From the NCBI GenBank assembly GCA_015067305.1, contig SVMT01000010.1, positions 1-64,000 of the forward strand: a stretch of 64,000 nucleotides of DNA. Direction: 5' to 3'. Source of the DNA: Oscillospiraceae bacterium (lineage in GTDB: Bacteria > Bacillota > Clostridia > Oscillospirales > UBA644). The notes beneath the pieces were generated by a model. The model was not told the DNA's origin, ran no database searches, and saw only the letters and a list, made by a program, of their open reading frames with translations. Shown here piece by piece: positions 11,696-12,477 of the stretch. The position numbers and the translations under genes are program-made. How positions within the stretch are numbered: the first letter of the stretch is position 1; every line of letters begins with the position of its first letter.

Positions 11696-11790
11696 TTGTG
11701 TGCGCGGCGTGAATTGTCTTTTGCGGAAAAGAACTCGGTTCGGCTCTGATAGTCCACAGGACTATTATTCACTACCGAAACTTCAACTTC
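11696..11790 (-). repeat. copy A of a folded ~100-nt repeat (decayed)
   Basis: This is a diverged copy of the element at 12080-12180. Shared blocks include the hairpin 11717-11722/11727-11732, the stem 11737-11743/11775-11781 (one mismatch), and the apical stem 11748-11755/11759-11766 around the same ACA loop. The outer stem is degraded and there is no CCA-like end or terminator. Against copy B, two base pairs of the apical stem changed on both sides (C-G to T-A and A-T to G-C) and a third became G-T. This suggests selection on the fold before decay. Confidence 0.65.
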
Positions 11791-11794
11791 TTTA

Positions 11795-12038
11795 TTTATA
11801 ATGATTATAGAAATTCGAAATTGTATTTCAATAGGGTTGGCTCCATTTTAAAGGTGCTTAAACAGCCTAGTTAGTGCTAAAAGAGCCAATCCCATCAAAT
11901 TTTCCTTGAAAATTTATCTATACTCATTTCAATGAATGTCGAGTTAATTCAAATTGTTATCAATTTGAATTAACAAAAGCCGATTTTATCGGCTTGTCGA
12001 AACGGTTTAGCGTTTCGACTTTCGATAATCATTATAAA
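11795..12038. repeat. hairpin-rich segment bounded by ~26-bp inverted repeats
   Basis: The ends 11795-11820 and 12013-12038 are inverted repeats of about 26 bp with two mismatches; the outer 14 bp are perfect. Inside are a long imperfect hairpin (11834-11843 with 11883-11893) and three consecutive perfect hairpins: 11943-11956/11961-11974 (14 bp), 11977-11984/11988-11995 (8 bp) and 11996-12004/12011-12019 (9 bp). No ORF fits. It resembles a MITE or a non-autonomous element, or the remains of a structured RNA. It sits exactly between repeat copies A and B. Confidence 0.6.
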
Positions 12039-12040
12039 AA

Positions 12041-12081
12041 AATAAGATAGATAATCACCATAAGTAACTATCTATCTTATT
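12041..12081 (-). terminator. intrinsic terminator after repeat copy B
   Basis: On the minus strand a perfect 12-bp stem (12041-12052 with 12070-12081) and a 17-nt loop are followed by a run of T. It directly follows the CCA-like end of repeat copy B, in the same way that the hairpin 12203-12238 follows tRNA-Pro. Confidence 0.75.
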
Positions 12082-12180
12082 GGTCCGAGCGGCGGGAGTT
12101 GCCTTTTCTGCGGAAAAGAGCGGGTTCGGCTCTGACAATCCACAGGATTGTCATTCACTACCGAACCTTCAACTCCCTTG
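12080..12180 (-). repeat. copy B of folded repeat, ends like tRNA-Pro with CCA
   Basis: The element folds into an outer stem 12094-12101/12170-12177 (8 bp, perfect). This encloses a hairpin 12103-12108/12113-12118 and a second stem 12122-12129/12161-12168 (one wobble), itself capped by a perfect 8-bp hairpin 12134-12141/12145-12152. On the minus strand its 3' end is identical over 22 nt to the 3' end of the neighbouring tRNA-Pro, including CCA, and a terminator follows. A separate promoter was not found. It may be a small RNA, a tRNA-derived repeat, or an insertion that copied the tRNA end. Confidence 0.6.
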
Positions 12181-12202: not shown

Positions 12203-12238
12203 AAAAATGATAATCCACAATAGTGAATTATCATTTTT
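12203..12238 (-). terminator. intrinsic terminator after tRNA-Pro
   Basis: The arms 12203-12214 and 12227-12238 form a perfect 12-bp stem with a 12-nt loop. On the minus strand it is followed by six T and begins at the CCA of tRNA-Pro. It should end the tRNA-Thr/tRNA-Pro transcript. Confidence 0.8.
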
Positions 12239-12314
12239 GGTCCGAGCGGCGGGAGTTGAACCCACGGCCTCTTGAACCCCATTCAAGCGCGCTACCAAAC
12301 TGCGCTACGCCCGG
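12238..12314 (-). tRNA. tRNA-Pro (anticodon GGG)
   Basis: Acceptor arm CCGGGCG pairs with the 3' strand including one G-T pair. The D-arm is GCGC/GCGC, the anticodon stem CTTGA/TCAAG holds the loop ATGGGGT with anticodon GGG at 12278-12280, and the T-arm has TTCAACT. The discriminator is A and CCA is encoded. It lies 15 bp after tRNA-Thr in the same direction and shares that promoter. Confidence 0.93.
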
Positions 12315-12329
12315 ACATATAAGGGTTAT

Positions 12330-12405
12330 TGGAGCTGATGATCGGGATCGAACCGACGACCTCATCCTTACCAAGGATGCACTCTACCGACTGAGCTACA
12401 TCAGC
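12330..12405 (-). tRNA. tRNA-Thr (anticodon GGT)
   Basis: Acceptor GCTGATG pairs with CATCAGC. The anticodon stem CATCC/GGATG closes the loop TTGGTAA with anticodon GGT at 12370-12372, and the T-loop is TTCGATC. Discriminator T and encoded CCA follow. It is the first gene of a two-tRNA transcript driven from 12449-12477. Confidence 0.93.
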
Positions 12406-12448: not shown

Positions 12449-12477
12449 ATTATACTACAAAAAACTCAATTTGTCAA
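12449..12477 (-). promoter_or_regulatory. sigma-A promoter of the tRNA-Thr/tRNA-Pro unit
   Basis: On the minus strand TTGACA (12472-12477) and TATAAT (12449-12454) are separated by 17 bp: full consensus, as expected for a stable-RNA operon. Confidence 0.85.

Follow-up and report, generated by a model that had tools for sequence, protein, structure and literature searches.

Small, mobile-looking elements with tRNA-tailored stems in the T-loops of tRNA genes of gut Clostridia

The two folded repeats (copies A and B) that lie behind a tRNA-Thr/tRNA-Pro unit in the 64,000-nucleotide stretch of Oscillospiraceae bacterium DNA analyzed here (the window) belong to a family of mobile-looking elements of ~65 bases, which sit in the T-loops of many tRNA genes of gut Clostridia. 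Only the core is common to the copies, and the closing stem of each consists of host tRNA sequence. On balance, we favor the reading that these are tiny non-autonomous mobile elements, which would enter the T-loop of a tRNA gene, restore the tRNA, displace its 3′ fragment, and use fold-back copying to add an arm in inverted orientation.

The strand of interest for both copies is the minus strand, which they share with the tRNA-Thr and tRNA-Pro genes just upstream (Table 1). The original prediction described two folded copies, and both are real: copy B folds as claimed, into an 84-nucleotide structure (12094–12177) with z = −4.6 as RNA and −7.1 as single-stranded DNA, and the minus-strand terminator proposed for this copy is present, while the RNA fold of copy A reaches a z of only −2.0. 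On the minus strand, copy B forms a three-way junction. Its closing stem is 8 bp long; the next arm is a helix of 7 to 8 bp that bears an internal loop together with an 8-bp apical hairpin, and the last is a 3′ hairpin whose loop reads CCGCA. What had been missing from the earlier description is the tRNA: the outer 8-bp stem of copy B is tRNA-Pro sequence, and 12081–12101 repeats the end of this tRNA through CCA. Copy A is an older, decayed relative, with a covariance-model score of 68.6 bits vs 104.7 bits for copy B.

Table 1. Features of the tRNA-Thr/tRNA-Pro locus and of element copies A and B (window positions)
Feature	Position	Strand	Remarks
Consensus sigma-70 promoter TTGACA-17-TATAAT of the tRNA-Thr/tRNA-Pro unit	12449..12477	−	12/12 consensus bases; pattern match only
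tRNA-Thr(GGT)	12330..12405	−	
tRNA-Pro(GGG), intact	12238..12314	−	T-loop is the target
Terminator-like A+T-rich hairpin in the gap between tRNA-Pro and element B	12203..12238	−	Inverted repeat I3, followed by a minus-strand T-run
5′ arm of element B, GGGAGTTGAA	12168..12177	−	Inverted copy of the 3′ half of the tRNA-Pro T-arm, TTCAACTCCC; 10/10 match
Mobile core of element B	12102..12167	−	Helix 2, apical hairpin GACAATCC-TGT-GGATTGTC, 3′ hairpin with CCGCA loop
3′ arm of element B and displaced tRNA fragment, CAACTCCCGCCGCTCGGACCA	12081..12101	−	tRNA-Pro 3′ end, CCA included, copied directly; repeat family D2
Second terminator hairpin, 3′ of the displaced fragment	12041..12081	−	Inverted repeat I2
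Element copy A, older and decayed, with relics of tRNA-Pro-like arms	11709..11791	−	68.6 bits
Relic of a displaced tRNA-Pro 3′ fragment after copy A, CAATTCACGCCGCGCACACA	11697..11716	−	Repeat family D2, 68%

Two further features of this locus are worth recording. A promoter-like TTGAAA-16-TATAAT sequence (11/12 consensus bases, 11804–11831, minus strand) ends ~13 nucleotides before copy A and may be a chance occurrence in A+T-rich DNA. A 34-nucleotide inverted repeat (88%, 11787–11820 and 12013–12046) flanks the interval between copies A and B, which holds more palindromes; these repeats are perhaps relics of earlier fold-back insertions.

The family was delineated using covariance models, the first built from nine copies and the second from 32. 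In the window's own genome, BLAST gave ~7 places besides copies A and B. This genome holds at least 12 copies (14 matches at E ≤ 1, of which 12 reach E ≤ 2e-11), neighboring tRNA-Pro, Leu-GAG (twice), Leu-CAA, Leu-CAG, Arg, and Met, and all own-genome places inspected lie either behind a tRNA gene and on its strand or at a contig end. Four contigs of this draft genome (C13, C39, C52, and C58) end in element arrays, and since several contigs end in this way, its copy numbers are probably too low. By covariance model, copies occur in 8 of the 10 sampled genomes of the genus, in 13/20 genomes of the family, and in 97/394 genomes of the order, including one carrier assembled as a single 4.0-Mb contig (G335), as well as in seven genomes of the class sample that fall outside the order. 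Searching Rfam 15 over the element at gathering scores returned tRNAs only, and a permissive search added only SQ1002, on the opposite strand and with 28.2 bits vs a gathering score of 128; phage and plasmid records gave no match to the element. No description of the family turned up in the open papers searched, although absence from open papers is weak evidence of novelty.

The relationship of the arms to the neighboring tRNA was examined in 62 distinct tRNA-proximal copies representing 24 tRNA species. In the 3′ arm, the 3′ end of the copy's own tRNA is repeated directly, from the T-loop and often through CCA; this repeat begins at C56 in 29 of the 48 measurable cases and matches the acceptor and CCA positions 13/13 in 37/62 copies. 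The 5′ arm, compared with the reverse-complemented T-arm of its own tRNA, matches at 10/10 positions in 47/62 copies and at 9/10 in 10 further copies, giving a total of 598 matches compared to 509 ± 5 when the tRNAs are permuted among loci (0/2000 permutations as high). Beyond the T-arm, an anchored test of the inverted copy is positive but modest (233 matches vs 166 ± 10, 0/5000), and free local alignment of the inverted acceptor part is negative (2/64), so a long inverted arm is present in a minority of copies only. Such arms reach 20 nucleotides at Arg-ACG and 17 nucleotides at Leu-GAG of the own genome, and at the Gln gene of G006 the inverted arm extends through TGG (the complement of CCA) and runs unbroken into the terminator palindrome. 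None of the 38 own-genome tRNA genes scored as lacking an element carries an inverted piece of ≥8 nucleotides, and the inverted copy thus belongs to the insertion; inverted repeats already present at tRNA genes were considered as its source and rejected on the same ground.

It is extremely improbable that these structures reflect only local tandem duplication, template-switch mutation, or misassembly near tRNA genes, with no mobile unit involved. While tRNA 3′ halves and terminators are indeed short repeats, and several contigs end at arrays, such an origin is at odds with the common core beside unrelated and distant tRNAs, with the copies in the single-contig genome, and with the outcome of the arm permutation tests.

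The surroundings of the core bear further signatures of insertion. At Leu-CAA, Leu-CAG, Arg, Lys, Gln, Ala, and Ser loci, a tRNA 3′ fragment with a terminator is found on both sides of the core, giving a direct duplication of ~60–70 bp. The similarity of the two terminators exceeds the 95th percentile of the null in 26/64 loci; terminator duplication was therefore rejected as a universal signature, being absent or unrecognizable at more than half of the loci. The units measure ~120–160 bp, those inserted between fragments ~140–160 bp, and contain no gene. Two paralogous tRNA-Glu/tRNA-Met clusters of the own genome are nearly identical except that one (on C39) contains a 141-bp element-bearing insertion that the other (on C52) lacks, such that the two tRNA-Met loci form a pair of occupied and emptier sites. 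Units also accumulate in arrays, for example, as three 141-bp units at Leu-CAG. Across arrays, the tRNA-proximal copy scores best in 12, a distal copy in 3, and 4 are ties (p = 0.018), which fits new units entering the T-loop and older ones being pushed outward; copy A, behind copy B, is an example of this order, and displaced copies often decay.

These signatures invite comparison with genomic islands in tRNA genes. Integrases are known to cross over at three sites within such genes, the T-loop among them, and the classical island signature is a tRNA that is restored while its fragment is displaced (PMC4383910); the intact tRNA and displaced direct 3′ fragment seen here agree with it. A mini-island inserted at the T-loop by a tyrosine recombinase, or by integron-like recombination at a folded site, would account for these features, and serial insertion would produce tandem arrays such as those observed. 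However, a single core is found here with the ends of at least 24 tRNA species, unlike a classical attP with its one fixed piece of tRNA, the added inverted copy of the tRNA end is foreign to the island signature, and the units, 141 bp in the arrays described, hold no integrase gene and are too short for one, making this explanation unlikely. We note that Islander rejects candidates of <2 kb or without an integrase gene (PMC4383910), so units such as these, which fall below the size limit of that island survey, would go unreported.

In the mobile-element reading that we prefer, a copy of the element would enter a tRNA gene at its T-loop, mostly between T55 and C56. The tRNA would remain whole, since a complete 3′ portion reaching from the T-loop to CCA, usually along with a terminator, would now lie upstream of the core, and the original tRNA 3′ fragment would be displaced downstream of it. 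The same event would also produce an inverted copy of the 3′ fragment and attach it to the core on its 5′ side, creating the perfect closing stem. As the target supplies the arms, its T-arm would have to be copied backwards at every insertion. We suggest that this may occur on a single-stranded intermediate, through DNA synthesis of the fold-back type (hairpin-primed or hairpin-capped): the opened T-loop strand would run on from its 3′ end into the core, with the other end folding back onto the 3′ fragment. In the predicted product, the tRNA and terminator precede the inverted 3′ fragment; after this come the core, the 3′ fragment, and a terminator again. The palindrome of the terminator is the putative joining point. 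Later insertions into the same T-loop would push older copies outward, where many would decay.

As for what might drive this movement, neither an autonomous version of the element nor a mobilizing enzyme was found among the candidates checked. RVT_1 occurs in 2/20 genomes of the family, G004 being the only one of these among the family carriers; neither the own genome nor any of the carriers G002, G003, G005–G009, and G016–G019 has it, several of these genomes being incomplete. A Y1 transposase is present in G000 and some other genomes and is absent from carriers G003, G009, G019, and others, although an enzyme acting in trans or since lost is possible, and an IS110 DEDD transposase was found nowhere in the genus, some genomes of which are incomplete. 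As helpers, reverse transcriptase, Y1, and IS110 are thus not consistently present in carriers; another or a lost enzyme could be responsible, and the host may supply it from among its replication or recombination enzymes.

The distribution of reverse transcriptases bears also on a SINE-like short retroelement, in which a core RNA would be inserted by target-primed reverse transcription at a nicked T-loop and the polymerase would snap back on its own primer to produce the inverted arm. The product would be identical to that of fold-back DNA synthesis. This scenario predicts the inverted arm, a long direct duplication, and a common 3′ hairpin with variable 5′ parts, and it is in line with own-genome modules on C8, C34, C39, and C52 that have other cores and share with the family only the 3′ hairpin and the T-loop boundary. 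With RVT_1 missing from the own genome and from most family carriers, some incomplete, we nevertheless regard it as very unlikely. In these modules (L019, L020, L021, and L024, respectively), the interiors differ and the 3′ hairpin (stem-CCGCA-stem-GG) is the same; one such module of ~150 nucleotides is reversed in L081.

The core is also found outside this arrangement. About 30 of the 108 order-level copies lie without a tRNA within a MITE-like repeat whose ends are of the CTTCCCCTTGAGG/GGATGAGG type. This repeat occurs in gut Firmicutes (L169, L179, L180, L182, and ~27 other loci) and on tailed-phage-like contigs, and the core in this form can give spurious ORFs that include VNDSPVDCQSR. Four viral contigs (L252–L255) carry the MITE-like form, again without a tRNA, and no autonomous helper is therefore seen there. 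At two further loci (L206 and L222), three copies lie antisense at the D-arm region of tRNA-Leu; a locus in the window's own genus (L085, 1329–1595) resembles these two, and in all three the flanking copies are direct rather than inverted, in tandem units of ~133–139 bp.

By the features tested, the family is not an Rfam family, an attC site, a REP, or a classical MITE. BOX/RUP-type and MITE-like repeats of Firmicutes are small, non-coding, dispersed, and partly palindromic, which the element resembles, its core even lying within a MITE-like repeat in places; in contrast to a MITE, however, the inverted ends of the tRNA-associated class come from the target rather than being encoded by the element, and the duplication, where seen, is not short but spans the 3′ fragment and the terminator. 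None of the open papers searched describes a repeat of this kind that matches the element. With REP/RAYT systems and IS200/IS605 ends it shares short, structured, non-coding repeats in many copies per genome and a central place for single-strand folding. Here, however, the closing stem is tailored to the tRNA, the Y1 transposase is missing from several carriers, and no REP-type tetranucleotide (GTAG/GGAG) at the hairpin foot is conserved in both subfamilies: GTAG, frequent in the first, is replaced in places by GAAG or GGAG and is absent from the second (f12, described below). Integron attC cassettes likewise insert serially at one site and use a folded single-strand site, but the alignments show no RYYYAAC ... 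GTTRRRY R-box pair in the element, whose arms follow the tRNA T-arm, whose target is a tRNA T-loop, and whose units hold no gene.

Turning to the fold, compensatory changes between the two window copies had been taken as evidence for selected structure. Both compensated pairs of the apical hairpin hold, whereas the reported wobble is a G·T on the plus strand only and an A·C mismatch on the tRNA strand, and evidence of covariation from two copies alone is weak. Among nine own-genome copies, 93% of alignment cells pair and 12/29 pairs change on both sides (0/500 shuffles as good); in 106 distinct aligned copies, 92% pair, compared to 34–42% in slid controls, and 27/29 pairs change on both sides, again with 0/500 shuffles as good, these latter shuffles being uncorrected for relatedness. 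The covariation thus persists in a larger alignment and, taken together with the dispersed copies, the insertion signatures, and the Rfam search, which matched tRNAs alone, supports the original prediction of a structured mobile repeat outside the known families.

Its further step, from selection for structure to a functional RNA, is not established by these data, as the closing stem is copied from the adjacent tRNA rather than evolved base by base, G·T pairs are rare in the core helices, and displaced copies often decay. In an alignment fitted to the structure, on which these pair counts rest, the core helices contain 28 G·T pairs in 2106 cells (1.3%) and 8 A·C, compared to 48/798 (6.0%) and 3 in the tRNA acceptor stems of the same loci. 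Near-pure Watson–Crick pairing of this kind fits a stem in which one arm was templated on the other, or a fold at the DNA level, and we count the rarity of G·T in favor of the mobile reading, although it is not decisive; the small excess of G·T over A·C (28 vs 8) hints at strand-specific folding of the tRNA strand. The structure may serve mobility itself.

A functional RNA is nonetheless the main rival reading, on account of conserved copies between operon tRNA genes in one genome family (f12). These copies form a subfamily with another internal loop (CUCUU...AA) that lies between operon tRNA genes with no terminator: the arrangement Gln–element–Lys is found in six species of one genus, and Arg–element–His and Ser–element–Ser in two genera (Arg/His copies: L269, L272, L270, L277, and L280). 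Between species, 97% of cells in the f12 stems are paired and 9/15 pairs have changed on both sides, and these operon copies look like the best evidence for maintenance. They would suit a host or domesticated structured RNA, co-transcribed with the tRNA, whose anti-T-arm strand has a role in the processing or quality control of tRNA or in read-through and whose stem and core are both under selection, as would the invariant internal-loop and 3′-hairpin motifs and the excess of G·T over A·C. We nevertheless consider a host RNA rather unlikely: presence across the order is patchy, most copies sit behind a terminator, decay is frequent among displaced copies, and the Arg operon copy of G311 (L280) has lost its core and kept both arms. 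The occurrence of the core in MITE-like repeats and viral contigs without a tRNA also argues against such a role, and selection leaves unexplained why the inverted copy should reach into the acceptor stem.

Mobile DNA of bacteria docks at transfer RNA genes more commonly than at any other site, and the known integrators there bring with them a matching piece of tRNA and an integrase. The present family brings neither, yet has a perfect stem from whichever tRNA it has met. We tentatively suggest that this could represent a new mode of mobility, in which no target sequence is carried, the stem is made by copying the target backwards, any tRNA gene can serve, and possibly only host enzymes are needed. 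It also calls for caution in reading structural alignments more generally, as base-pair covariation can arise by copying one arm from the other and not only by selection on an RNA. If our reading is true, a very small, target-templated mobile element would be present in about one-quarter of the sampled genomes of this order of gut Clostridia.
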